This document shows, piece by piece, positions 7,436-52,448 of a stretch of DNA of 64,000 nt. The translations under genes and the position numbers were made by a program. The stretch is from Cyanobium sp. PLM2.Bin73 (lineage in GTDB: Bacteria; Cyanobacteriota; Cyanobacteriia; PCC-6307; Cyanobiaceae). The notes beneath the pieces were generated by a model. That model was not told the origin of the DNA and made no database searches. It saw only the letters and a list, made by a program, of their open reading frames with translations. The first letter of the stretch is position 1, and every line of letters begins with the position of its first letter. The DNA lies in contig REEV01000059.1 of the NCBI GenBank assembly GCA_007694915.1, forward strand, positions 1 to 64,000, written 5' to 3'.

Positions 7436-10400
7436 TCAGCGGCGTTCAATCAGCCCCTCGCTGTGCAGCACCAGCTGGCGCAAGCGATCCAGCTGGTGCG
7501 CCTGGGCGCCCTGCCATAGGCCCCGGTTGTGGGCCTCCAGCAGCCGTTCGGCCATGTCCCGCAGGGCCCAGGGGTTGCTGCGCTCCAGAAAGGCGCGCAC
7601 CTCGCCGTCCCCCAGCCACTGGTCGCATACCGCGCCGTAGCCCCAGTCGGGGATGCGGCCGGTGCTGGCGTCGTAGGCGAACAGGTAGTCGAGGCTGGCC
7701 GCCATCTCGAAGCCGCCCTTGTAGCCGTGGCCGCGCATAGCCTCGATCCAGCGGGGGTTGAGGAGGCGTGAGCGCAGCACCTTGTCGAATTCCTTCTCCA
7801 GCCGGTGCAGGCGTGGGCGGGCCTGGCGAGAGTGGTCGCCGAACCAGAGCGCCGGCGCCTTGCCCTGCAGGCTCTCGGCGGCGGCGCTGAGGCCCCCCTG
7901 GAACTGGTAGTAGTCGTCGGAGTCGAGCAGGTCATGCTCGCGGTTGTCCTGGTTGTGCAGCACCACCTGCACGGTTGCCAGGCGCTGTTCCAGACCGGCG
8001 CGGTCGGCGCTGGCCTCGATCGCCCCCAGCGCCGCGCTGTCGCTTCCCCCTGCGTCCTTGTGTGCACCTTCGCCATAGCGCCAGCTGCTCCAGTTCAGGA
8101 ACGCCTCCCCCAGATCGGCCCTCCGCTCCCACTGGCCGCTGTCGATCAGTCCCTGCAGGCCGGCGCCGTAGGCCCCGGGCGCCGAGCCGTAGACGCGGGC
8201 GCAGTGGCCCTCCCGGCGGGCGGTCGCCGCCAGGGGGTTGTCGGCCTCCCCTTCATCCAGTGCCGCCACCAGGGCCGTGGCCCGGTTCATCCAGCCCACC
8301 AGCTGGGGGAAGGCGTCTCGGAACAGGCCGGAGATGCGCAGAGTGACATCCACCCGTGGCCGCCCCAGCAGGCTCAGGGGGATCGCCTCCAGGTCCACCA
8401 GCCGCCGGGTGGGTCCATCCCAGAGCGGCCGCACCCCCAGCAGCGCCAAAGCCTGGGCGATGTCCTCGCCGCCGTTGCGCATCGTGCTGGTGCCCCACAC
8501 CGACAGCGCCAGGGTGCGCAGGTGCTCCCCCTGCTCCTGCAGGTGCAGCTCCAGCAGCAGCTCAGCGCTGCGCCGCCCCAGGTCCCAGGCCGCCTCCGTC
8601 GGCAGGCCGCGCAGATCCACCGAGTAGAAGTTGCGGCCGGTGGGCAGCAGGTCGGGCCGCCCGCGGGTGGGCGCCCCCGAGGGCCCGGCGGCGATGCGCC
8701 CCCCCGCCAGTCCCGCCAGGAAGGCGTGCCGTTCCGCCTCGCCGCAGGCCAGCAGCCTTGGCACCAGAACTCGCCGGGCGTGGTCCAGCACCCGCTCGGT
8801 GCAGGGCCCCGTGGCACTGTCGGCGAGGGCCGCGAGCTCGGCCGCCGGGTTGTCGGTCTCAGCCCCGGCCTGCCGCAGGAGCGCCCGGCAGTGGGCCTGG
8901 GCCTGGGCCTCCAGCAGAGCCACGCCATCGCCCACCTTGCGGGCCGGGCCCAGCTGCTGGCGGTCGCCTGGGGGCAGCGGCGCCTCCTCCGGGTCGGCCC
9001 AGGGATCCAGCGCCAGGCCGCGGTCGCGGGCCAGGGCCTGGGTGAGGCCGGGCAGACCTGCCTGGGGTGCTCGCGCCAGGCAGAGCAGCAGCTCGGCCAG
9101 GCGCTCGGGCTCCGGCAGGTGGCCGTAGGTGTGCAGGCCCAGCCGGATCTGGGCCTCCTTGAGCTCGCAGAGGTAGCCGTCGGCAGCATCGAGGCGGGCG
9201 TCCAGCCGGGCGTCCCCATCGGCTGCCGAGGCGTCATCGGCCAGGGGCAGCTCCAGCTCCGCCAGCCGCGCGCCCAGGGTGCGGCGCAGGGCGGCGGCCC
9301 GTTCGCCGCTGCCCAGCTGGGTGGCCTCCCAGTATTCGTCCAGCAGGGCTTCGAGCTGCTGCAGCTCCCCGTGCAGGCCGGCGCGGCCCAGGGGCGGGGT
9401 GAGGTGATCGAGGATCACCGCCTGGCTGCGGCGCTTGGCCTGGGAGCCCTCGCCGGGGTCGTTGACGATGAACGGATAGAGGTGGGGCAGCGGCCCCAGG
9501 GCCCATTCCGGATAGCACTGGTCGGAGAGTCCGAGTCCCTTGCCCGGCAGCCATTCGAGGTTGCCGTGCTTGCCCACATGCACCACCACCTGGGCGCCGA
9601 AGCGCTGCCGCAGCCACAGGTAGACCGCCAGGTAGGCATGGGTGGGCGGCAGATCCGGCGCGTGGTAACTGAGGCTGGGATCGCGGTCGTAGCCCCGGGC
9701 CGGCTGGATCAGCAGGGCCACGTGGCCGAAGCGCAGGCCGGGGATCGGGAAGGCCGGCTCACCTCGCCCCGCGGGGCCGGGTGACGCGAGCCCCGCGTCC
9801 TGCTCGGGGGGGCCCCACACCGCCTCCAGCCGCTGGCGGCCCTCCAGGGGCAACTGGCCATACCAGCGCTGGTAGTGCTCCAGGGACAGATGATCGAGCG
9901 CCGGCCGGTGGCCGCTCTCGGGATCGTTGCTGCGGCCCGCCAGCAGGGCGGCGATCAACGCCTCGCCATCGCCCGGCAACGTCGTGGATACCCCGGTGCC
10001 GCCGGTGCCTCCTGTGACGCCCTCCCCGCCCTCCGGGCCCAGGCCGTAGCCGGCCTCGTTCAGCCAGCGCAGCATGGCGGCGGCCGAGGCCGGGGTGTCG
10101 AGGCCCACGCCGTTGGCCAGGCGGCTGTTGCGGGTGGGGTAGTTGGCCAGCACCAGGGCGATCCGGCGCCGAGCCGCCGGTGTGCGGGCCAGCTCGATCC
10201 AGTTGGCGGTGAGGGCGCTGATCCAGTCGAGCCGCTGGCGGTCGGGCTCCAGCCGCTGCAAACCCGACGCCAGCCGGGCGCTGGCCCCCCGGCACTCCTT
10301 GAAGGCGCCGATGCGGGTGGTGATGCGGCCGTCCAGCTCCGGCAGGGCTACCTGCAGGGTGAGGTCGGTGGGCGGCAGGCCGATGCTGCTGGCCTGCCAG

Positions 10401-11275
10401 CGCTGGCGCGGCTGGCTGCTGCACAGCAGCTGCAGCACCGGTACTCCCAGCTGCTCCCACAACGGCGCCCCCAGCCCCGCCTCCTCGAACTGCACCGAGG
10501 CGAAGGAGGTACAGCACAGCACCGCCTCCACCCGCTCGCGCTCCAGCAGATCGGCCACCCCCCGCTGCACGGCGCCATCGCGCAGACCGCTCACCCACAG
10601 CGCCCGGGGACACAGGCCGCGGGCGCGCAGGGCCGCCAGGGTGGCCTCCAGCCAGCCCACGTCGCCGGCCTGGAGCAGGGCCCTGTAGGCCACCACACCC
10701 ACCCGCGCCCCGGGTTCATCGCGCCAGTCGTGGGGGCAGGGATCGGCCAGGGGCAGCGGCTCCGGTGGCGCTGGTTGCTCCCCCCGCAGCAGGGCGGCGA
10801 GGGTCTGGAGGACCAGCCGGCCGTTGCCGGCTCCCCCCAGCCGCAGGCAGCGGCCCAGGGCGACCGCCAGCTGCGGATCGCCTGTGCCAAGGGCGGCCAG
10901 GGTCTGCTCCTCCTCGGCGGTGCCGGCCAGCACCAGCAGCTGGCGGTCCTGCCCGCCGGCCGCCCATAGCTGCAGCCGCTCCAGTCCATAGCTCCAGTGG
11001 CCCCGGCCCCCCAGCAGCCGCACCACCACCAGCCGCGCCGCCGTCACGGTGCTGCTGAGGTAGTGGTCGATCACGGCCGGGTGGCTCAGGGCCGTCAGGT
11101 TGAGCCCGCGCAGGTCAGCCCCCAGCAGCTGCGGTTCAGCCTCCAGCAGCCCGTCAAGGGTCAGCAGGTCGGTGTCGGCGCTGGTGAGCAGCAGCACCGG
11201 CGCCGGCGGCTGTTCCACGAAGGCGCCGCTGCTGGCCTCCGCCGCGTCACCCGGGATCGCCGCCAGCCTGTGCAT
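7436..11275 (-). CDS. cobN: Cobaltochelatase subunit CobN
   Basis: About 1,279 residues, the usual CobN size. It is the large porphyrin-binding subunit of aerobic cobaltochelatase, which inserts Co2+ into hydrogenobyrinic acid a,c-diamide during cobalamin synthesis. The CobN/Mg-chelatase H core is clear: HGKHGNLEWLPGKG near residues 565-580, followed by NDPGEGSQAKRRSQ, then LPTGRNFYSVD and the C-terminal LLNPRWIEAMRGHGYKG block. HGNLEWLPG with NDPGEG distinguishes it from ChlH, which has NNPSE. I chose the ATG at 11275 because sequence upstream of it overlaps the divergent ilvE promoter. Cyanobacteria generally lack CobS/CobT, and CobN is thought to use ChlI/ChlD-type ATPase subunits. Confidence 0.93.
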   Translation of the reverse strand: MHRLAAIPGDAAEASSGAFVEQPPAPVLLLTSADTDLLTLDGLLEAEPQLLGADLRGLNLTALSHPAVIDHYLSSTVTAARLVVVRLLGGRGHWSYGLERLQLWAAGGQDRQLLVLAGTAEEEQTLAALGTGDPQLAVALGRCLRLGGAGNGRLVLQTLAALLRGEQPAPPEPLPLADPCPHDWRDEPGARVGVVAYRALLQAGDVGWLEATLAALRARGLCPRALWVSGLRDGAVQRGVADLLERERVEAVLCCTSFASVQFEEAGLGAPLWEQLGVPVLQLLCSSQPRQRWQASSIGLPPTDLTLQVALPELDGRITTRIGAFKECRGASARLASGLQRLEPDRQRLDWISALTANWIELARTPAARRRIALVLANYPTRNSRLANGVGLDTPASAAAMLRWLNEAGYGLGPEGGEGVTGGTGGTGVSTTLPGDGEALIAALLAGRSNDPESGHRPALDHLSLEHYQRWYGQLPLEGRQRLEAVWGPPEQDAGLASPGPAGRGEPAFPIPGLRFGHVALLIQPARGYDRDPSLSYHAPDLPPTHAYLAVYLWLRQRFGAQVVVHVGKHGNLEWLPGKGLGLSDQCYPEWALGPLPHLYPFIVNDPGEGSQAKRRSQAVILDHLTPPLGRAGLHGELQQLEALLDEYWEATQLGSGERAAALRRTLGARLAELELPLADDASAADGDARLDARLDAADGYLCELKEAQIRLGLHTYGHLPEPERLAELLLCLARAPQAGLPGLTQALARDRGLALDPWADPEEAPLPPGDRQQLGPARKVGDGVALLEAQAQAHCRALLRQAGAETDNPAAELAALADSATGPCTERVLDHARRVLVPRLLACGEAERHAFLAGLAGGRIAAGPSGAPTRGRPDLLPTGRNFYSVDLRGLPTEAAWDLGRRSAELLLELHLQEQGEHLRTLALSVWGTSTMRNGGEDIAQALALLGVRPLWDGPTRRLVDLEAIPLSLLGRPRVDVTLRISGLFRDAFPQLVGWMNRATALVAALDEGEADNPLAATARREGHCARVYGSAPGAYGAGLQGLIDSGQWERRADLGEAFLNWSSWRYGEGAHKDAGGSDSAALGAIEASADRAGLEQRLATVQVVLHNQDNREHDLLDSDDYYQFQGGLSAAAESLQGKAPALWFGDHSRQARPRLHRLEKEFDKVLRSRLLNPRWIEAMRGHGYKGGFEMAASLDYLFAYDASTGRIPDWGYGAVCDQWLGDGEVRAFLERSNPWALRDMAERLLEAHNRGLWQGAQAHQLDRLRQLVLHSEGLIERR

Positions 11276-11342
11276 GGCCCCATCCTGCTGGGTGCGGTGA
11301 GAAGATCGGTGATCCTTGCCTCCCGGGTCCCAGCGCCTACCC

Positions 11343-12260
11343 ATGCACCAGTTCCTGCCCCAAGCCTGGTTCCGTGGCCGCTGCGTTCCCTTTGCTGAAG
11401 CCACCCTGTCGGTGGCCACCCACGCACTGCACTACGGCACCGGTGCCTTCGGGGGAATGCGCGCCCTGCCCAACCCCGCCGATCCGAACGAGATCCTGCT
11501 GTTCCGGGCCGATCGCCACGCCCGCCGCCTGAGCCAGAGCGCCCGCCTGCTGCTCACCGAGCTGGACGAAGCCACGATTCACGGGGCCATCGAGGCCGTT
11601 CTGCGGGCCAACCGCCCCACCTGCCCGGTATACCTGCGGCCGTTCGTCTACACCGCCGATCTGGGCATCGCCCCGCGGCTGCACAACATTGAAACCGACT
11701 TCCTGATCTACGGGATCGAGCTGGGCGACTACCTCTCCCCCGAGGGGGTGAGCTGCCGGATCAGCTCCTGGATCCGCCAGGAAGACCGCTCCCTGCCCCT
11801 GCGCGGCAAGATCAGCGGCGCCTACATCACCAGTTCACTGGCCAAGACCGAAGCGGTGAAGAGCGGCTTCGACGAGGCCATCCTGATGAACAGCCGCGGA
11901 AAGGTGAGCGAGGCCAGCGGCATGAATCTGTTCATCGTGCGTGATGGCGTGCTGATCACCCCCGGCGTGGATCAGGACATCCTCGAGGGCATCACCCGCG
12001 CCAGCGTGATCGAGCTGGCCAGGGCCATGGGCATGACCGTGGTGGAGCGTCCGGTGGACAAGAGTGAGCTGTTCATCGCCGACGAGGTGTTCCTCAGCGG
12101 CACCGCCGCCAAGGTGACGCCGGTGCGCCGGGTGGAGGCCACCGACCTGCCGGCCCCACGGCCGGTGATGGAACGGCTGCGGGAGCGCCTGACGGCGATC
12201 ACAGAAGGCCGTGATCCGGACTATGACCATTGGATCACCCGCGTGCGTCTCGACGCCTGA
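11343..12260 (+). CDS. ilvE: Branched-chain amino-acid aminotransferase
   Basis: Fold-type IV PLP aminotransferase of about 305 residues, catalysing the last step of leucine, isoleucine and valine synthesis. Visible signatures are the N-terminal [16 protein letters not shown] block, the PLP-binding Lys in RGKISGAY (about K156), the EASGMNLF segment and [15 protein letters not shown] near residue 250. The start is the ATG at 11343; a TTG upstream would add nine residues. Divergent from cobN with only about 67 bases between start codons. Its stop overlaps the metH start as TGATG, so ilvE and metH are probably cotranscribed. Its partner ilvD lies at the far end of the window. Confidence 0.93.
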
Positions 12261-43277: not shown

Positions 43278-43724
43278 CTAGGTCACATCCACCGCTGTGA
43301 ATTTATCCACCCCCGGTGGCAGGTTTCGCGACACGGGACAGGCCTGCATCCGTTCTTTGATGTAATCCAGGTCAGTCTGTGCCACCTGCGGGGATTGGCC
43401 TGTCCCATCGGCGACATTCAGGATCACCCGAAACCGGCCCCTGACGCTCTGGAGGATCCAGTTGTCAGCAGCCGTCACGCCGAACTCAGTCTCAACCCGC
43501 TGCAGCGGCAGCTCGCGCTCCAGGGCATTGGCCACCAGATAGTGGTGCTGGCAGAGCAGCAGGGAGATCAGGTAGATCCGAAACCCAGGCATCGTCAGGC
43601 TGAGCTGCTGGGGCTCCCAGCTGCCTTCCGGGTTCAACCACTGCACCGTCAGATCGCTGCTGGTGCCACCGGGATGCTGGTGCTCACTCTGCAACCGGAA
43701 CTGGAACTGACGTGGGCTGGTCAT
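43278..43724 (-). CDS. OsmC-family protein
   Basis: 148 residues. The two conserved cysteines of OsmC/Ohr-type thiol peroxidases are present, in ISLLLCQHHYLVANALE (about 62) and ERMQACPVSRNL (about 130), with VETEFGVTAADNWI between. The protein could reduce organic hydroperoxides or act on persulfidated or oxidised thiols; family membership gives only the chemistry. It is the last gene of the minus-strand run that begins with the chelatase genes, and its ATG overlaps the TauE stop (ATGA), so its function is likely tied to sulfur handling. The 58 bases after the tRNA hold no other feature. Confidence 0.75.
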   Translation of the reverse strand: MTSPRQFQFRLQSEHQHPGGTSSDLTVQWLNPEGSWEPQQLSLTMPGFRIYLISLLLCQHHYLVANALERELPLQRVETEFGVTAADNWILQSVRGRFRVILNVADGTGQSPQVAQTDLDYIKERMQACPVSRNLPPGVDKFTAVDVT

Positions 43725-44584
43725 GGCGACAGGCGACGAAGGGACGAGGGAATGGCAGCAGACGGGGAACGCCCAACCGGAGGTGCCGGCAGCGCGGCGG
43801 CGGGCTGGGTGCTCTGGCGGCGCCATGCCTCCACACCGGTGAGCAGGGCCGAGCCCAGCAGCAGGGCAGAGAACCCCTGCCGCAGGCGCAGCTCGGGCAG
43901 ATGGGGCGCGAGCCACTGGCCGGCCATGGCTCCGGCGGCCCCACCGAGCAGCAGGGGGATCAGCAGCGGCAGCACCGCGCTGGGCCAGTGGCCCAGCGCC
44001 ACCAAGGCCACCAGGGCATTGGTGGCGATCAGCAGCAGGCTGGTGCCGCTGGCCATCGCCATTGGCAGGCCCGCCAGCAGCACCAGGGCCGGCACGATGG
44101 CGAAACCCCCGCCCACCCCGGCGATGCCGGTGAGCAGCCCCACCACCACCCCCTGCAGGGCCAGAGGCCCCACCCGGCCCGGCCGCTCGGGGTTGAGGGC
44201 GGCGTCCACCAGGACGCCCCGGCGGGTGAGCAGCCAGGCGGCCACCACGGCCGCCAGGGTGAACAGGGCCAGTTGCATGGCTTCGGGGATCAGGCCCCCC
44301 TTCACCAGCGATCCACCGATCCAGCTGCCGGCCAGGGCCGGCACGCCCAGCACCAGGGCCGGACGGGGCGCGAACAGGCCCCGCCGCAGATAGGGCGGCA
44401 TGTTGGCCAGGGCGAGCAGCCCCACCACGATCAGCGACAGGGGCACGGCCTCACGGGTGGGCAGGCCTGCTCCGCTCACCAGCAGCGGCAGTAGCAGGAT
44501 CGAACCGCCGGCACCGAGCACCGCCAGGAGGAAACCGATCAACGCCCCGCCGCCCAGCAGCAGCGCCCAGCTGGCCTCGATCAC
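43721..44584 (-). CDS. TauE/SafE-family sulfite/anion exporter
   Basis: 287 residues, polytopic membrane protein with about eight hydrophobic helices. The family signature is present twice: LLAVLGAGGSILLLPLLV at the N-terminus and LTGIAGVGGGFAIVPALVLL near 160. TauE/SafE proteins export sulfite, sulfoacetate or related anions. The GTG start overlaps the stop of the rhodanese gene (GTGA) and its stop overlaps the OsmC start, giving tight coupling. In bacterial persulfide operons (cst, bigR types) a TauE protein accompanies the persulfide dioxygenase and exports the sulfite it makes; the same role is inferred. Confidence 0.85.
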   Translation of the reverse strand: MIEASWALLLGGGALIGFLLAVLGAGGSILLLPLLVSGAGLPTREAVPLSLIVVGLLALANMPPYLRRGLFAPRPALVLGVPALAGSWIGGSLVKGGLIPEAMQLALFTLAAVVAAWLLTRRGVLVDAALNPERPGRVGPLALQGVVVGLLTGIAGVGGGFAIVPALVLLAGLPMAMASGTSLLLIATNALVALVALGHWPSAVLPLLIPLLLGGAAGAMAGQWLAPHLPELRLRQGFSALLLGSALLTGVEAWRRQSTQPAAALPAPPVGRSPSAAIPSSLRRLSP

Positions 44585-45120
44585 AGGGAGATCCGGTTCC
44601 AGGGCATGGCCGCCAGCAGACGGGCCATGCCGCAGAAGCCGCTGATGCCAGCGAACACCAGACCGGCTCCCACAAACCAGCTGAGCAGGATCCAGGCCGG
44701 CGCCACCGTGGAGCTGAGGATCAGGCCCAGCAACACCAGCGAGCCGGCGGCGATCTGCACCTGGCGCATCAGCGGCAGCGGTGCTCGCTTGAGTCGGCGC
44801 AGCGCCAGGCCGGCCTGCTCCCACGACGGCACACCGCCCTCCAGGTCGGCCAGCGAGTAGGGGTGGCCCTGGGCCTGGAGCAACCGCACAGCGCGGCCAC
44901 TGCGGTTGCCGCTCTGACACACGAGCACCAGGGGGCCCTGGGGCAGATCGGCCTGGGCGATTCGGGCGAGGGGAATGTTGAGGCTGCCGTCGATGTGGCC
45001 GGAGGCGTACTCCACCGGTTCGCGCACATCGATCACCGTCACTTGCTGGTTCGCAAGCTGCTCGGCAAGGGCATGGGCGGACAGGCTGCTGGCCTGCTGC
45101 ATGGATCGGGTGGTGGTCAT
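44581..45120 (-). CDS. Rhodanese with C-terminal membrane domain (DUF2892-like)
   Basis: 179 residues. A rhodanese domain (15-110) with VIDVREPVEYASGHIDGSLNIP and active-site loop CQSGNRSGRA (Cys about 68) is fused to two membrane helices (VLLGLILSSTVAPAWILLSWFVGAGLVF then GFCGMARLL) like DUF2892. Such proteins transfer sulfane sulfur at the membrane and occur in bigR-type hydrogen sulfide detoxification operons beside a persulfide dioxygenase and a TauE exporter. ATG 45120; 91 bases separate it from the upstream dioxygenase fusion, a gap without another feature. The second Cys near 164 sits in the membrane end. Confidence 0.88.
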   Translation of the reverse strand: MTTTRSMQQASSLSAHALAEQLANQQVTVIDVREPVEYASGHIDGSLNIPLARIAQADLPQGPLVLVCQSGNRSGRAVRLLQAQGHPYSLADLEGGVPSWEQAGLALRRLKRAPLPLMRQVQIAAGSLVLLGLILSSTVAPAWILLSWFVGAGLVFAGISGFCGMARLLAAMPWNRISL

Positions 45121-45211
45121 GGGGGGTGGGATCGCTTGAACGATCGGGAAACGACGTGGATGGACAGAAACAAACGCGGAATCAGGACCCCAGCCGCAGC
45201 CGGGGATGGGG

Positions 45212-46333
45212 TCAGGTCAGCTGGGGAACCTCCAGGGGATAGCCCTCGTCGGCCCAGCGGCGCAGGCCACCACGCAGGTTGGCCACCTCGGCGCGGCCCG
45301 CCTTGAGCAGCTGCTGCGTGGCCAGGGCTGAGCGGCTGCCCGAGTGGCACACCACCACCACCGGGTGATCGGCGGGGATGTCGTTCTGGCGCTGGGCCAG
45401 ATCGGGCAGCGGGATGGCCACGCTGCCGGCCACGCGACCATCCGGGCCCTCCAGTTCCTCGCTGGAGCGCACGTCGAGGATCGTCACGTCCTCGCGGTGG
45501 GCCGCCACCCAGGCCGGGGTCAGCTCCGGCAGGCCGGCATAGCTGCGGGCCACTGGCGCCCAGGCCGGGGTTGTCAGCGGTTCTCTGGGTTTGCCGGAGC
45601 GCAGGTTGCCGGGCAGGGCTTCGGCGATGCGGTGGGGGTGGGGGAGCTTCATGTTCTCCATGTGCCCCACGAAATCGCGCTCTGTGGCACCGGCGCCAAG
45701 CCGGGCGTTGAAGGCCTTCTCCTCCACCACCGAGGTGACCGTGCGGCCGGTGTAGTCGTGGCCGGGGTAGAGCAGGCAGGACTCGGGCAGGGTGAAGATC
45801 TGGCCGGTGATCGAGCTCCACAGGGTGTGGGCATCGCCCTGCTGGAAATCACAGCGCCCACAGCCCCGCACCAGCAGGGCGTCGCCGGTGAAGGCCATCG
45901 ACTGGTCGTCGAGCACATAGGTGAGGCAGCTATCGGTGTGCCCCGGAGTGCTGCGCACCTGCAGATGGCGGCTGCCGAACGGCACCCGGTCGCCGTGCTG
46001 CAGGGGCAGGCTCACATTTTCGGCCCGGCCGCTGGCGGCCACGCCGATCGCACAGCCGGTGGCGGCATGCATCAGCCAGCTGCCGGTGACGTGATCGGCA
46101 TGCACGTGGGTGTCGATGGAGGCCACCAGCTCGATGCTCAGCTCGCGGATCAGGGACAGATCGCGGCCGTGTTGCTCGAACACGGTGTCGATGATCAGGC
46201 CCTGACGGCTGGCCGTGTCAGCCAGCAGGTAGGTGAAGGTGCCGGTATCGGCGTCGAAGAGCTGCCGCACCAGCAGGGGCCCACCGCCCGCGGCGGCGGA
46301 GAGGGAGATGGGGGCGTCCGGATTGGAGACCAT
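45212..46333 (-). CDS. Persulfide dioxygenase-rhodanese fusion
   Basis: 373 residues. Residues 20-250 form a metallo-beta-lactamase-fold, ETHE1-type persulfide dioxygenase: HVHADH (76-81), PGHTDSCLTYV, GDALLVRGCGRCDFQQG and LLYPGHDYTGR, which give the single iron site. Residues 280-373 form a rhodanese domain with VTILDVRSSEELEG and active-site loop CHSGSRS (Cys about 329). The enzyme oxidises glutathione- or low-molecular persulfide to sulfite and thiosulfate, detoxifying sulfide-derived sulfane sulfur. ATG 46333. It heads the dioxygenase-rhodanese-TauE-OsmC set and lies just 45 bases after chlD on the same strand. No CsoR- or BigR-like repressor gene is adjacent. Confidence 0.9.
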   Translation of the reverse strand: MVSNPDAPISLSAAAGGGPLLVRQLFDADTGTFTYLLADTASRQGLIIDTVFEQHGRDLSLIRELSIELVASIDTHVHADHVTGSWLMHAATGCAIGVAASGRAENVSLPLQHGDRVPFGSRHLQVRSTPGHTDSCLTYVLDDQSMAFTGDALLVRGCGRCDFQQGDAHTLWSSITGQIFTLPESCLLYPGHDYTGRTVTSVVEEKAFNARLGAGATERDFVGHMENMKLPHPHRIAEALPGNLRSGKPREPLTTPAWAPVARSYAGLPELTPAWVAAHREDVTILDVRSSEELEGPDGRVAGSVAIPLPDLAQRQNDIPADHPVVVVCHSGSRSALATQQLLKAGRAEVANLRGGLRRWADEGYPLEVPQLT

Positions 46334-46351: not shown

Positions 46352-46385
46352 CTATGAGTATAGCCGCATAAAGGGCAATCAAGCA
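46352..46385 (-). promoter_or_regulatory. Possible promoter and palindrome before the persulfide dioxygenase
   Basis: On the minus strand a TATACT box (46362-46357) lies 17 bases after a weak TGCTTG element (46385-46380). The palindrome CTAT-GAGT-ATAG (46352-46363) covers the minus-10 box. The stretch is AT-rich in an otherwise GC-rich area, so the sulfur genes may have their own regulated promoter inside the end of chlD. Confidence 0.45.
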
Positions 46386-48445
46386 CGTCGTTGTGGGCTG
46401 CGCTGCTCCAGCCAGCCCCGGGCACGGCTGCTGATGTCGCGGCCCGTGGCCCATGGCAACGGCAGCACCGTGGCGATCCCGGTGTTGCCCAGGTCCGTCA
46501 GCAGAGCCGAGGCAGGGTGGCGGCTGCCGGTGTCGATCGCCAGGACGGCCATCCCCAAGCTGGCGACGCTGCGCACGATCGTCAGCACTTCAGCGTGGAT
46601 GGCGGCCAGGGACGGCACCGGCTCGCAGGGCTGCCTGCCGCTGGCCGCCTCCAGGGACTGGCTCAGGCCCACATTGGCCTTGCCGTCGCTGATCAGCACC
46701 ACGATCACCTCGGCGATGTCCTTCGACGACAGGGCATTGCGGCCCAGCCGCAGGGCCAGAGCCAGGCCATGGGAAAGCGGTGAGCCGCCCCCGCAGGGCA
46801 GCCGTTCCAGCCGCCGGGAGGCGGCCGTGACCGAGCGGGTGGGTGGCAGTTGCACCTGGGCCGTCTGCCCCGAGCAGCTGATCAGGGCGATCTGGTCGCG
46901 GTGTCGGTAGGCCTCAGCGAGCAGTTGCAGGGCCGCCCCCTTGGCGGCCTGCATGCGGTTGAGGGCCATCGAGCCGGAGGCGTCCACAACAAACACCACC
47001 AGGGCTCCGGCCTTGCGGGCCAGCAGCTTGGCCCGCAGGTCCTCCTCCCGCACCAGCACCTGGCGACCCCGGACCCGGGCCTGCCGGGGGCTGAGCCGCC
47101 GGCGCCGTGCCTTCTGGTGGGGCGCCGCTGCCCGCAGGGTGGCATCGAGGGCCACACGCCACGTCGGCCCCCTGGGCAGCACGGGTTTCACGTAGCGCCC
47201 CCGCTCCTGGGAGCGCACCAGCCCTCGCCGGCCGCCGCGCCCCTGGCGGGCGGTCCGGCGGGCCGCCACGGCCAGCAGATCCGGCTCGAGCAGCACACCC
47301 TCCGGAGAGAACAGAAAACTGTCGGGCACCCCGGGCGGCCGCTCAGGCGCTGCCTGCTCAGCCTGCTCCTCGGCCTTGGCCTCCGGTTCCGGGGAGGGCG
47401 GGGGAGTGGATGACTCCGCTGGTGGTGGCGGCTGGGGCTGCTGCGGGGGTGGCGGGGGCTCCAGGGCCAGGGCCGATCGCGGCAGGATCACCTGCCACAC
47501 CGCTTCGCGCAGGTCATCGGCCCGCAGACGCTCTCGCCCCTGCAGGGCAGCGTGGGCACGGGCGGCCCGCACGGCGAACAGGTCGGCTCGATGGCCTTCG
47601 GTGCCGGCCCGGATCGCCTCCTCCACCAGGTAGCGGGTCTGAGCCGGGGTGACGCGGGTGCGGCGCAGGCGCCGCCGGCTGGCCACCACCCGCCGCTGCA
47701 GCTGCTCCAGCCCAGGGCCGTACTGGCACCAGAACGCACCCGAGTCTTCAGCAAACCACAGCACCCGTCGCACCGCCTCCACCCGCTCCTCCACGGCCAG
47801 GGGGGCATCGGCGCTGAGCACCATGGCGAAGCGATCCAGCAGGTGAGCCCGCAGTTCCCCCTCGGCGGGGTTGGTGGTGGCGATCAGCAGGGGGCGGCAG
47901 GGATGGCGAAAACTGATCCCCTCGCGCTCCACCTGGTTGAAGCCCGCCGCCACCGTGGTGAGCAGGAGATCGGCCAGGCCCGGCTCGAGCAGATTGAGAT
48001 CGTCCACGCACAGCACCCCCCGGTGGGCCTCGGCCAGCAGCCCCGGCTGGAAGACCGCGCGACCACGGCGCACCGAGGCCTCCACATCCACCGATCCCAG
48101 CAGCCGGTCTTCACTCACCCCCAGGGGCACCTGCACGAACGGTGCCGCCACCACCGTGCTCACCGGGTTGCGGCTGAGGCGGGCCCGCCGGGCCACCGTG
48201 GCGTCATCCCAGTCCCAGGGAGCCGCCGGGTCGGCCTGGGCGCAGGAGTGGCAGATCACCCGGATCGGCGGCAGCAGGGCATGGAGGGCCCGGGCCATCA
48301 CCGTCTTGGCGGTGCCGCGCCGTCCGGCGATCACCAGCCCGCCCAGGCCTGGATCCACGGCCAGCAGCAGCAGGGCGGTGCGGATCCGCTCCTGATCCAC
48401 CACGGCGTGGAGCGGGAACGGCTGAACCGCCGGTACAGCGCTCAC
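46379..48445 (-). CDS. chlD: Mg-chelatase-type subunit D, AAA+ with vWA domain
   Basis: 688 residues. Residues 10-320 form the AAA+ module with Walker A GRRGTAKT (41-48), VPLGVSEDRLLGSVD, and Walker B VLCVDDLNLL (144-153). A proline- and glutamate-rich linker (328-372) follows, then the integrin-I/vWA domain with the MIDAS motif DASGSMA (488-494) and a later SPLSHGLALAL. This is the ChlD architecture and length; the Walker A is intact, as in cyanobacterial ChlD and unlike degenerate BchD. Together with ChlI it drives metal insertion by the H subunit. GTG start overlaps the chlH stop (GTGA). ChlI is not in the window. Sequence details (GRRGTAKT, CVDDLNLL) differ from the ChlD usual in picocyanobacteria. 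Confidence 0.87.
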   Translation of the reverse strand: MSAVPAVQPFPLHAVVDQERIRTALLLLAVDPGLGGLVIAGRRGTAKTVMARALHALLPPIRVICHSCAQADPAAPWDWDDATVARRARLSRNPVSTVVAAPFVQVPLGVSEDRLLGSVDVEASVRRGRAVFQPGLLAEAHRGVLCVDDLNLLEPGLADLLLTTVAAGFNQVEREGISFRHPCRPLLIATTNPAEGELRAHLLDRFAMVLSADAPLAVEERVEAVRRVLWFAEDSGAFWCQYGPGLEQLQRRVVASRRRLRRTRVTPAQTRYLVEEAIRAGTEGHRADLFAVRAARAHAALQGRERLRADDLREAVWQVILPRSALALEPPPPPQQPQPPPPAESSTPPPSPEPEAKAEEQAEQAAPERPPGVPDSFLFSPEGVLLEPDLLAVAARRTARQGRGGRRGLVRSQERGRYVKPVLPRGPTWRVALDATLRAAAPHQKARRRRLSPRQARVRGRQVLVREEDLRAKLLARKAGALVVFVVDASGSMALNRMQAAKGAALQLLAEAYRHRDQIALISCSGQTAQVQLPPTRSVTAASRRLERLPCGGGSPLSHGLALALRLGRNALSSKDIAEVIVVLISDGKANVGLSQSLEAASGRQPCEPVPSLAAIHAEVLTIVRSVASLGMAVLAIDTGSRHPASALLTDLGNTGIATVLPLPWATGRDISSRARGWLEQRSPQRRA

Positions 48446-51400
48446 CCCGGCCCGACCGCCACGGCCACGCCCTCCAGTTCGGCATCGGTGAGGTCATGCA
48501 GCTGGCGCAGGGACTCCAGGGTGTCGGGGGAGGCCTGCCAGATGCCGCGGCTGCTGGCCTCGAGCATGCGGCCCACCACGTTGCGAAAGGCCTCGGGATT
48601 GGCCTGGCGCAGCCGCTCGGCCATGGCCGGATCGAGGGCGTAGGTGCCGGCCGCCTGGTCGTACACCCACTGGTCGTGGAAGTCACTGGTGCCCGCCCAG
48701 CCCAGCAGGGCGGTCATCCGCTGGGAGATTTCGTAGGCCCCGCCGGAGCCCATCGCCGCCATCGCCTCGGCCCAGCGGGGATTGAGCAGTTTGCTGCGGT
48801 ATTCCAGCCGCAGCAGCTCATCGAGCTCCCGGGGGGTGGTGTCGCGCGAGAACGACTCCACGAAGCTGGCCGGCACCCGCCGCCCCGGCCGCTCGGCCGC
48901 CTGGGCCACTTCGGCGGCCCGCTTGAGCCCGCCGGTGTTGGCGTAGTACTCCTGGATGTCGGTGAGGCCGTATTCCACCGAATCGATCTGTTGCACGACT
49001 CGGTCGGTGCTGCGCAGCAGGGCTGCCAGCACCTCGGGCCGCGCCTGGCCATGGTCGCTGCGGCCATAGCTGTACACGTTGCGATCGCGCCAGGTGTCGG
49101 CCAGATCTTCGCTGCTCTCCCAGTTGGAGTCGGTGATGCGGTCGTTCACAAGCGATCCGAAATCGCCGGCGGGATTGGAGAACAGGCGGGCGCTGGGGTT
49201 CTCCACCCCCTGGGCCCGCAGGGCATTGCAGTGGCGGCGAATGGCGTTGCGCTGCTCGGGCTCGTCGGCCTCGGCGGCGCGGCGGAAGAGATCGTCGAGC
49301 AGCTCGAGGATGTTGCCGAAGCTGTCGCGGAAGATCCCCGACAGGTTGGCCAGCACGTCGACGCGTGGATGCTCGAGCTGGTGGAGGGGAATCAGCTCGT
49401 AGCGCACGATCCGCCCCGTGCCCTCCTGCAGCGGCCGGGCCCCCACCAGCTCCAGCAGGATCGCCAGCGATTCGCCCCGGGTCTTGATCGCATCCAGGCC
49501 CCAGAGCATCACGGCCACGGTGTCCGGCCAGGCGCCAGCGTGCTCGGCGCGGTGGCGCTCGAGGAGGCGCCGGGCGATCTCACGCCCCCGGGCCATCGCT
49601 CCGGCCGACGGCATCCGGTATGGATCGAGGGCATGGATGTTGCGCCCGGTGGGCAGCACCCCGGCACCGTCACGCAGCAGATCCCCACCGGGAGCCGGGG
49701 GAATGTATTCACCGTTCAGGCCCCGCAGCAGGTTGCTGAGTTCCTCGCGGTTGCGCTCCAGCAGCTGCCCCACCTCCAGGGCCTGCCGCAGGGCCAGCCG
49801 GGCCGCGGGCTCCAGCTCCGGGTGGCGGTGCAGCAGGGCCTGCTCGCTGGCCTCCAGGGCGCTGGCGTCGGCGGGGGGCTCCTGGGATGCGATCTCGCCC
49901 AGAACCGGCTCTGGCAGATCTTCGCCGTAGCAGGCCTTGAGGTAGCTGAGGCGCTCCTGGGGATCGGGGGGCAGGCCCAGGGTGTGCAGGCCGCTGGAGA
50001 ACAGCCGCTGCTCCAGCAGCTGCAGGTAACTGCTGAGCTGCTGCAGGTAGGTGTCGAAGAGGGCCGTCTGGTTTCCCTGCCGGTCCAGACCGCTGGGCAG
50101 GGGGCAGTCCCGGTCCAGACCGGCATCGAACACGGCCTTGAGGATCGGCTCGCGCAGGGGGCCATGGCGGGAGGGATCCTCCCGGTATTCACCGATCAGA
50201 TCCCGCAGCGCCACCAGCTCCCGGTACAGGCCGGCCCGGCCGTAGGGGGGCACGTTGTGGGAGATCAGCACGCCATAGCCACGGCGCTTGGCCAGCATCG
50301 ACTCGGAGGGGTTGTTGGCCGCGTACACATAGAGGTGCGGCAGCTCCCCCAGCAGCAGGTCGGGCCAGGAGTAGCCGGTGTTGCCCAGGGGAGAGCCCGG
50401 CAGCCACTCCACCGTGCCGTGCATGCCGAAGTGGAGCACCGCGTGGACCTGCAGCTGCCGCTGCAGCCAGAGGTAGAAAGCGGCGTACTGGGGGTGGGGG
50501 GTGAGGTCGCGCTCGTACATCAGCCGCATGGGGTCGCCGGCGATCCCCAGCGGCGGCTGCACGCCGATCCAGACGTTGCCGAGGCGCAGGCCGCCGAGCA
50601 GAAAGCGATCCCCCAGGGTGCGGATGCCGGTGGCGGTGAGCGGGCCCCACTGCTGCTCGATGCGCCGGCTGTGCAGGGGCCCCAGCCACTGGCGCAGCTC
50701 CTCGGCGCTGACGCTGGCCAGGCTGGAGTCCTCGAACCGCTCCCCGGCCGGGATGCGGCTCAGCCAGGCCTCATCGGCCTCCTTCACCCGCCGCACCAGC
50801 TCCTCGCCATCGGCGGGCCAGTCAGCCGGGTCGCCGAGGTCGTAGCCCTGGCGCCTGAGGGCCTCCAGCAGGCCCATCAGCGAGGCCGGCACATTCAGCA
50901 GCGCCGCCGTACCGGTGGCGCCATAGCCCGGCGGAAAGCCGTAGAGCACGATCGCCAGCCGCCGCTGGGGCGGGGGAGTGCGGCGCAGGCGGATCCACGC
51001 ATTGAGGCGGCCGGTGAGACGCCGCAGCCGTTCGGGCACCAGCAGGATGCGCTCGCCCACCAGGCCCCCCAGGGGCACGGGGTCGATGGCCCCGTCCAGC
51101 TCCGGCAGGGCGAACAGCACCACGCTCTGCAGCCCGCCGATGCCCTGCCGGGTCCAGGAGTGGATGTCCTGGATCAGCAGCGGCGCCGCCACCACATAGG
51201 GCACGTTCAGGGCCCGCAGGATGCGCTGGGCCACCTCTTCGCGCCGGCCCGCCTCCATGGAGCCAGCCGGTCCGCCCACCAGGGGGAACCCGATCGTGGA
51301 GACGATCGCGTCCACCGCCACCGCCTGGCGGTGCTGGGCCGACGGCGGCACACCGGCGCTGGTCATCCAGTCGCGCACGGCCATGTGCCCTTCCACGCCG

Positions 51401-52317
51401 TTGATGAACACCGGCAGCGGCAGTAGCCGGGCCGCTTCGAAGGCCCGGATCAGCTGGCCGATGTAGGGCTGGGCCGTGATCACGTGCTTGCGGTAGAGCA
51501 GCAGCCCCACCACCGGCCAGTTCTCGCGCTCAGGCCGGCTGGCCGGCCGGGTGCGCTGAAACCAGCCCAGGTAATCGGCGGGCTGGCTGAACAGCTGCGG
51601 GTGGTCGGGATGGATCAGGCCCATGGCGGGCGTGTCCTGGCGCGGGGGAATCGCGCCGCTCTCCAGACCGAGGCAGTGGCGGGCGAGGTAGAGAAACAAC
51701 GCCGTCACGTTGGCGGGCCCGCCGGCATTCCAGTAGCCGTAGAGCACCAGCCAGTGGCGCAGATCCTGGGCCCGGCGCGAGGGCAGGAAGCGCAGCAGCT
51801 TCGGACCCACCTTCAGGAAGCCCACATAGGCCGCCAGCCGGTCCTCCTCGCGGCCGCCGCTGAACTTGTCCAGCAGGGCGCGCACGGGTTTGGGCATGCC
51901 CTTGGAGCCGGAGCCGATCGCGAAGCGGCCGAGCCGGGTCAGGGCCATCAGCTCCAGCGCTGACTCGAACACCAACCGCACCGGGATCTCCCCGGCCCGC
52001 TGGCTGAGCCACTCCACCTGATCGAAGTCGAAGATCAGGCTGGCGAACAGCACATCCGCCCCGGCCAGGGCGGCCTCCAGCGCGGCGCTGCGCTCCCGCA
52101 GGTCGTGATCGCTGAAGATGGCAATCTCCAGCTGGGGGCAGCGTTCCATCGCCCGTGCCGCAGCCTGGCGGTAGAGGGCGGCGTTGAACACCTCAAACCC
52201 GGCCACCAGCACCACCCGCCGGCGTTTCGCCTGCTCCCCGCTCTCCGCAGTGGGGGGGGTGCTGGCTTCTGGTTGGGCGCTGCCGATCGTCATGGCCGGC
52301 TGCTGTTCTGTCTTCAT
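48442..52317 (-). CDS. chlH: Mg-chelatase-type subunit H, BchH-like
   Basis: About 1,291 residues, porphyrin-binding large subunit of the CobN/ChlH family. It has FSDHDLRER, a second-domain LVGGPAGSMEAGRR near 385, then VLHFGMHGTVEWLPGSPLGN near 625-645, YAANNPSESMLAKRRGYG, YGRAGLYRELV, LPTGRNIHALDP, and the C-terminal GGAYEISQRM block. NNPSE and IHALDP mark it as ChlH/BchH, not CobN. MHGTVEWLPG instead of the cyanobacterial THGSLEFMPG, and YGVLISHNVPPYGRAGLY, look to me like purple-bacterial BchH. ATG 52317; a GTG at 52365 would add 16 residues. If a standard ChlH exists elsewhere, this is a second, divergent chelatase. Confidence 0.85.
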   Translation of the reverse strand: MKTEQQPAMTIGSAQPEASTPPTAESGEQAKRRRVVLVAGFEVFNAALYRQAAARAMERCPQLEIAIFSDHDLRERSAALEAALAGADVLFASLIFDFDQVEWLSQRAGEIPVRLVFESALELMALTRLGRFAIGSGSKGMPKPVRALLDKFSGGREEDRLAAYVGFLKVGPKLLRFLPSRRAQDLRHWLVLYGYWNAGGPANVTALFLYLARHCLGLESGAIPPRQDTPAMGLIHPDHPQLFSQPADYLGWFQRTRPASRPERENWPVVGLLLYRKHVITAQPYIGQLIRAFEAARLLPLPVFINGVEGHMAVRDWMTSAGVPPSAQHRQAVAVDAIVSTIGFPLVGGPAGSMEAGRREEVAQRILRALNVPYVVAAPLLIQDIHSWTRQGIGGLQSVVLFALPELDGAIDPVPLGGLVGERILLVPERLRRLTGRLNAWIRLRRTPPPQRRLAIVLYGFPPGYGATGTAALLNVPASLMGLLEALRRQGYDLGDPADWPADGEELVRRVKEADEAWLSRIPAGERFEDSSLASVSAEELRQWLGPLHSRRIEQQWGPLTATGIRTLGDRFLLGGLRLGNVWIGVQPPLGIAGDPMRLMYERDLTPHPQYAAFYLWLQRQLQVHAVLHFGMHGTVEWLPGSPLGNTGYSWPDLLLGELPHLYVYAANNPSESMLAKRRGYGVLISHNVPPYGRAGLYRELVALRDLIGEYREDPSRHGPLREPILKAVFDAGLDRDCPLPSGLDRQGNQTALFDTYLQQLSSYLQLLEQRLFSSGLHTLGLPPDPQERLSYLKACYGEDLPEPVLGEIASQEPPADASALEASEQALLHRHPELEPAARLALRQALEVGQLLERNREELSNLLRGLNGEYIPPAPGGDLLRDGAGVLPTGRNIHALDPYRMPSAGAMARGREIARRLLERHRAEHAGAWPDTVAVMLWGLDAIKTRGESLAILLELVGARPLQEGTGRIVRYELIPLHQLEHPRVDVLANLSGIFRDSFGNILELLDDLFRRAAEADEPEQRNAIRRHCNALRAQGVENPSARLFSNPAGDFGSLVNDRITDSNWESSEDLADTWRDRNVYSYGRSDHGQARPEVLAALLRSTDRVVQQIDSVEYGLTDIQEYYANTGGLKRAAEVAQAAERPGRRVPASFVESFSRDTTPRELDELLRLEYRSKLLNPRWAEAMAAMGSGGAYEISQRMTALLGWAGTSDFHDQWVYDQAAGTYALDPAMAERLRQANPEAFRNVVGRMLEASSRGIWQASPDTLESLRQLHDLTDAELEGVAVAVGPG

Positions 52318-52448
52318 TGTGTTGCGGATCCAGAGCACCGGCCGCCCGGTCCTGCGTCTATTCACCGGCCGTGGTGATTCCCCCGGCCGCTGCCCGCTCA
52401 GGCCGGCTGGGTCATGCTCAGAGAAGTACCCCCACGCCTTTCAAAGCG

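Follow-up and report, generated by a model that had tools for sequence, protein, structure and literature searches.

In our study, the 64,000-nucleotide stretch of Cyanobium sp. PLM2.Bin73 DNA analysed here (the window, to which all positions refer) was found to carry two adjoining minus-strand genes, named H2 and D2, for a second, ancient pair of magnesium chelatase (Mg-chelatase) subunits, the two largest of the enzyme. Mg-chelatase catalyses the committed step toward chlorophyll. The best reading of the sequence evidence is that H2-D2 may be an alternative Mg-chelatase isoform, spare or condition-specific, driven by the only ChlI of the cell, and we consider this moderately probable. The family-level scores, the residues kept in H2, the intact motifs of D2, the adjacency of the two genes, the agreement of their trees, their co-occurrence, purifying selection, the single ChlI and the overlap with the anaerobic cyclase BchE are the points which speak for it.

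The H2 gene (chlH2-like, 48442-52317) encodes 1,291 residues from an ATG start; a GTG at 52365 would extend the protein to 1,307 residues, and homology among H2 proteins mostly starts near residue 33. D2 (46379-48445) is a second ChlD paralogue of 688 residues with a GTG start, in which an AAA+ domain, a proline-rich linker and a VWA/integrin-I domain were recognized (Pfam VWA, AAA_lid_2 and Mg_chelatase). Inspection of the junction sequence, GGGGTGAGCG, has shown that the TGA stop of H2 and the GTG start of D2 share a GTGA at 48442-48445 (minus strand), an arrangement of translational coupling, and no ChlI gene is present in the H2-D2 neighbourhood. The original prediction had described this coupled arrangement and the lengths of both proteins, and these hold, as do the motifs it quoted: MHGTVEWLPG starts at residue 632 of H2, NNPSE ends with E672 and NVPPYGRAGLY starts at residue 688.

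Over its full length H2 scores 1420 bits against the Mg-chelatase H family TIGR02025 (NCBIfam cut-off 829). It falls below the cut-offs of the narrower models, with 938 bits for ordinary ChlH (NF009140, cut-off 1300), 794 bits for proteobacterial BchH (NF009942, cut-off 1166) and 526 bits for CobN (TIGR02257, cut-off 822), and it is placed outside the ChlH clade and not as sister to BchH. D2 reaches 616 bits against the Mg-chelatase D family TIGR02031 (cut-off 500) and has the AAA+ domain together with VWA and its metal ion-dependent adhesion site (MIDAS), yet it does not lie within the ordinary cyanobacterial ChlD clade. Both family-level matches are well beyond chance.

A second chelatase pair had been supposed from the window, and the genome search bears this out. 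The PLM2.Bin73 genome (2.72 Mb in 137 contigs, completeness 99.99%, contamination 0.79%) contains three proteins of the CobN/ChlH type, namely an ordinary ChlH on contig C123, the CobN of the window and H2. An ordinary ChlD is found on contig C67, and the one clear ChlI copy on contig C131, which is another contig than that of H2-D2. Since the genome has ordinary ChlH, ChlD and ChlI as well as CobN, H2-D2 is a genuine second pair. The refuting outcome named in the original prediction, no other chlH or chlD and branching inside the ordinary clades, did not occur. The possibility of a mis-binned contig was ruled out by the presence of CobN and metH on the H2-D2 contig and by synteny within the genus. 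The cobN gene (7439-11419, minus strand) adjoins an aminotransferase gene and a metH-like gene, and two class I chelatase large subunits are thereby encoded inside 45 kb of the window.

In the phylogenetic analysis, H2 forms a single clade of 68 rows with 100% support, drawn exclusively from cyanobacterial genomes, and its identity to ordinary ChlH is about 37%. CobN served as outgroup in a mixture-model tree, in which H2 stands apart and the proteobacterial BchH proteins join ordinary ChlH at 98% support; the overall range of support for this grouping is 98-99%. A purple-bacterial BchH/BchD source had been put forward for the pair, and the general models indeed label both proteins BchH/BchD. 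However, a tree constrained to unite H2 and BchH was rejected (approximately unbiased test, p-AU 0.004; the BchH sample comprised three alphaproteobacterial proteins with no Chlorobi or Chloroflexota, and long branches were present), and H2 is a cyanobacterial paralogue, so that such an acquisition is hardly credible. The "BchH-like" label also turned out to be misleading, because the motif of the three proteobacterial BchH proteins is MHGALEFMPG or THGALEFMPG, and EWLPG is the form found in CobN. A Chloroflexota origin suggested by a record titled Chloroflexaceae (L070) was likewise rejected, as the phylum search placed its genome in the cyanobacteria and its H2 lies within the cyanobacterial H2 proteins. 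Two further records deserve mention: L022 (G048) is a third, highly divergent ChlH/CobN-type protein of 1,222-1,240 residues that belongs to none of H2, ChlH and BchH and has a long branch of its own, and L074, titled Microcystis elabens, groups with Cyanobium in the protein trees.

The distribution of H2 is wide. In a draw made evenly across the phylum it was present in 67 of 139 cyanobacterial genomes, about half of the species sampled, the base being genomes with any ChlH-type match and H2 being called at a best E value of at most 1e-200. Its relatives, at 58-87% identity, come from Cyanobium, Synechococcus WH 5701, Nodosilinea, Laspinema, Oscillatoria, Acaryochloris, Prochloron, Geminocystis and others, and it is scarce in the family of PLM2.Bin73, where three of 37 genomes carry it (G000, G001 and G005, PLM2.Bin73 included). 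In one genome (L019, G037:C292) H2 adjoins the ordinary ChlH gene in divergent orientation.

D2 is far more restricted. Its clade holds 17 proteins, separated from ordinary ChlD with support of 99/99, of which 13 are picocyanobacterial and the others are L075 (Leptolyngbya SIOISBB), L090 (Nodosilinea LEGE 07088), G047 and G079. Two full ChlD proteins occur in just two genomes of the phylum draw, both with H2. Most H2-bearing cyanobacteria have a single ChlD for everything, so H2 would have to share that ChlD there; a D2 to match H2 is present in picocyanobacteria and in a few filamentous lineages. In the 13 picocyanobacterial lineages D2 directly follows H2, with a stop/start overlap of one or four bases in ten of them and a spacing of a few bases in L042, L072 and L087 (taken from the open reading frame table or a scan). 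In L075 and L090 it lies tail-to-tail near H2, at 0.9 and 2.6 kb respectively, and in G047 and G079 on different contigs from H2. All the 17 D2 proteins come from H2-bearing genomes.

This association also bears on the idea that D2 serves the CobN of the window as the CobT-like subunit it lacks, with D2 lying beside H2 only incidentally. In cyanobacteria, which have neither CobS nor CobT, ChlI and ChlD are believed to work with CobN (PMC9227772), and the cobN gene is located about 37 kb from the pair. On the other hand, most of the sampled cyanobacterial genomes lack a second ChlD and CobN is nevertheless common among them, while the overlap with H2 and the finding of no D2 apart from H2 leave a CobT-like role very improbable. 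The H2 and D2 trees of the picocyanobacterial lineages are concordant on the main groups: Cruz-7E5 is deepest, and J7-Johnson, the genus of PLM2.Bin73 and the WH 5701 group follow as separate branches whose order is only partly resolved. Both genes are under purifying selection, the ratio of nonsynonymous to synonymous substitution rates being about 0.16-0.21 for H2 and 0.32-0.33 for D2 (about 0.2 and 0.33 respectively between PLM2.Bin73 and Prado107).

Residue numbers follow Synechocystis ChlH and were fixed through an alignment with PDB 4zhj, whose DVSHYF motif contains H1174 as its His. Residues of ChlH have been named as catalytic (H621, E660 and H1174) or as belonging to a proton channel (E625, Y651 and Y653), and the three catalytic ones are given as essential (PMC13297055). 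Five of these six residues are kept in 68 of 68 H2 proteins. H633 and E637 of H2, corresponding to H621 and E625, lie within MHGTVEWLPG (50407-50421, minus strand), and Y663, Y665 and E672, corresponding to Y651, Y653 and E660, lie within LYVYAANNPSE (50302-50331, minus strand). In D2, the Walker A motif GRRGTAKT (48302-48325, minus strand) is intact, the MIDAS starts with DASGSM as in ordinary ChlD (46967-46984, minus strand), and the arginine-finger region is retained. The MIDAS is essential in ChlD (PMC6604950).

From these features, a second class I chelatase, driven by ATP, would be built with H2 as the part that binds the substrate and D2 as the part that bridges. H2 would hold a porphyrin, most likely protoporphyrin IX, and D2 may dock on it through the VWA/MIDAS domain, with its AAA+ domain closing a ring with ChlI. 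The hydrolysis of ATP by ChlI would then power the insertion of the metal, most likely Mg2+. As the genome has one clear ChlI, we infer that the ATP motor would have to be the shared one. The retention of the ordinary ChlH, ChlD and ChlI in the same cell suggests that the pair probably acts as an alternative isoform when some condition calls for it, such as low oxygen, light or stress, and not as the main enzyme.

Several observations weigh against an alternative Mg-chelatase. The catalytic His1174 is replaced by Glu, acidic like the Asp of CobN, in 68 of 68 H2 proteins (E1123 in PLM2.Bin73, 48949-48951, minus strand; the alignment is free of gaps at this place), and the Walker B of PLM2.Bin73 D2 reads DD and not DE. 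The pair is dispensable, being present in three of 13 genomes of the genus with PLM2.Bin73 counted. Clustering of the 7-kb flanks of 72 H2 loci gave no conserved neighbour beyond D2 and the synteny of close kin, and none which suggests chlorophyll synthesis. Finally, BchE above the cut-off is absent from the PLM2.Bin73 genome, and 54 of the 67 H2-bearing genomes also lack it. H2 is found in 13 of the 15 genomes with BchE (Fisher p 0.002, kinship uncorrected), which is above expectation, but these absences make a low-oxygen role for H2 weak, and anaerobic chlorophyll synthesis was set aside as the role of the pair.

The H1174 position is occupied by His in every ordinary ChlH aligning there, by Asp in eight of eight CobN proteins and by His or Gln in proteobacterial BchH. 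The original prediction allowed that the pair may serve a different porphyrin or metal, or be meant for a different growth condition. Insertion of Co, Zn or Ni, or the use of another porphyrin, would lead to a metallo-tetrapyrrole other than chlorophyll; the clade-wide acidic residue and the EWLPG motif, both common to H2 and CobN, about 35 other positions fixed differently from ordinary ChlH and BchH, and the complete ordinary Mg-chelatase already present in the same cell would fit with this. The change to Glu hints at an altered specificity, short of proof. In contrast, H2 scores far higher as an Mg-chelatase H subunit than as CobN, and at the Y653 position it has the Tyr of ChlH where CobN has Phe. 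Moreover, a BchH encoded inside a bch gene cluster carries Gln at the position, which suggests that His1174 may not be an absolute need and may not define the Mg-chelatase H family. With these facts on both sides, another metal or porphyrin is a lesser possibility which we regard as unlikely but worth keeping in view. The BchH in question, from a Novosphingobium capsulatum plasmid (L194:14812-18363, within bchFNBHLM), is annotated as cobaltochelatase CobN. A bolder proposal, that H2-D2 is a third class I chelatase of cyanobacteria whose changed specificity yields a metallo-tetrapyrrole new to these organisms, would be based on the clade-wide His1174-to-Glu change together with the dedicated D2; its H subunit would then occur in about half of cyanobacterial species, and we consider it rather doubtful.

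The loss of the His1174 side chain throughout the clade, and the missing second D or I subunit in most of the H2-bearing genomes, may alternatively mean that H2 is no longer a productive chelatase and instead binds porphyrin for regulation or protection, or acts as a dechelatase. The class I dechelatase HmuS shows that the fold is able to run in reverse (PMC12583661). However, in 13 lineages H2 has retained D2 as a dedicated partner whose Walker A and MIDAS are intact, which best fits an ATP-driven coupling, and a binder or dechelatase is judged to be improbable.

Just downstream of D2, at 43721-46333 on the minus strand, there are genes for a persulfide dioxygenase (lactamase-B with rhodanese), a rhodanese with a YgaP-like transmembrane part and TauE/SafE. 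These sulfur genes are co-directional with the pair and membership of a common operon was considered, but in relatives the block occurs without H2-D2 and with its own upstream sequence. As the block is conserved within the genus whether or not the pair is present, the sulfur genes are neighbours and not partners. Two genomes of the same genus (G012 and G004) have empty sites (L203 and L204), in which the flanks are identical in order (peroxiredoxin, superoxide dismutase, a DUF3122-like gene, then persulfide dioxygenase, rhodanese and TauE) and H2-D2 is exactly missing; the match to the empty site resumes at the D2 stop codon. G001 and G005 carry the pair at the same site, their H2 being 87% identical to that of PLM2.Bin73, and loss in G012 and G004 is therefore a simpler reading than gain.

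This study may direct further work on the pair, as a second H subunit, for which we found no described role, is present in about half of the sampled cyanobacterial species. Picocyanobacteria in culture, Synechococcus WH 5701 among them, also carry H2-D2, which there offers a self-contained unit for expression and deletion, and the single Glu at the His1174 position poses a precise mutational question on the choice of metal or substrate.

The pair was further compared with the known systems. In comparison to the ordinary ChlH-ChlD-ChlI enzyme, H2-D2 has the same domain make-up, five of the six catalytic or proton-channel residues and the MIDAS and Walker A of the D subunit, whereas Glu in place of H1174, the separate clades, the adjacent overlapping genes and the lack of a ChlI of its own set it apart. 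The proteobacterial BchH-BchD-BchI enzyme is similar at the level of TIGR02025 and TIGR02031, but it is not sister to H2-D2, its motifs differ, and its BchD is shorter and, in the single example used for comparison, without a clear Walker A. CobN has EWLPG and an acidic H1174 equivalent in common with H2, and differs in that H2 lies under the CobN cut-offs, that CobN forms the outgroup of the tree and that the genome has a separate CobN. No description of a dedicated D2 was found in the open-licence PubMed Central literature. A second, distant ChlH isoform, ChlH2/CHLH2, has been described in cyanobacteria and green algae (Rockwell and Lagarias 2023, PMC10156173), and the two chlH copies of Halomicronema hongdechloris (PMC6416890) probably reflect the same situation. 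As far as the available text of the ChlH2 report goes, a D partner is not named there, and H2 is equated with ChlH2 by description and not by sequence comparison. In that text ChlH2, like H2, is an isoform standing beside the ordinary ChlH in a part of cyanobacteria and apart from ChlH1, and H2 is monophyletic and cyanobacterial; judged by description, H2 is this already known isoform.

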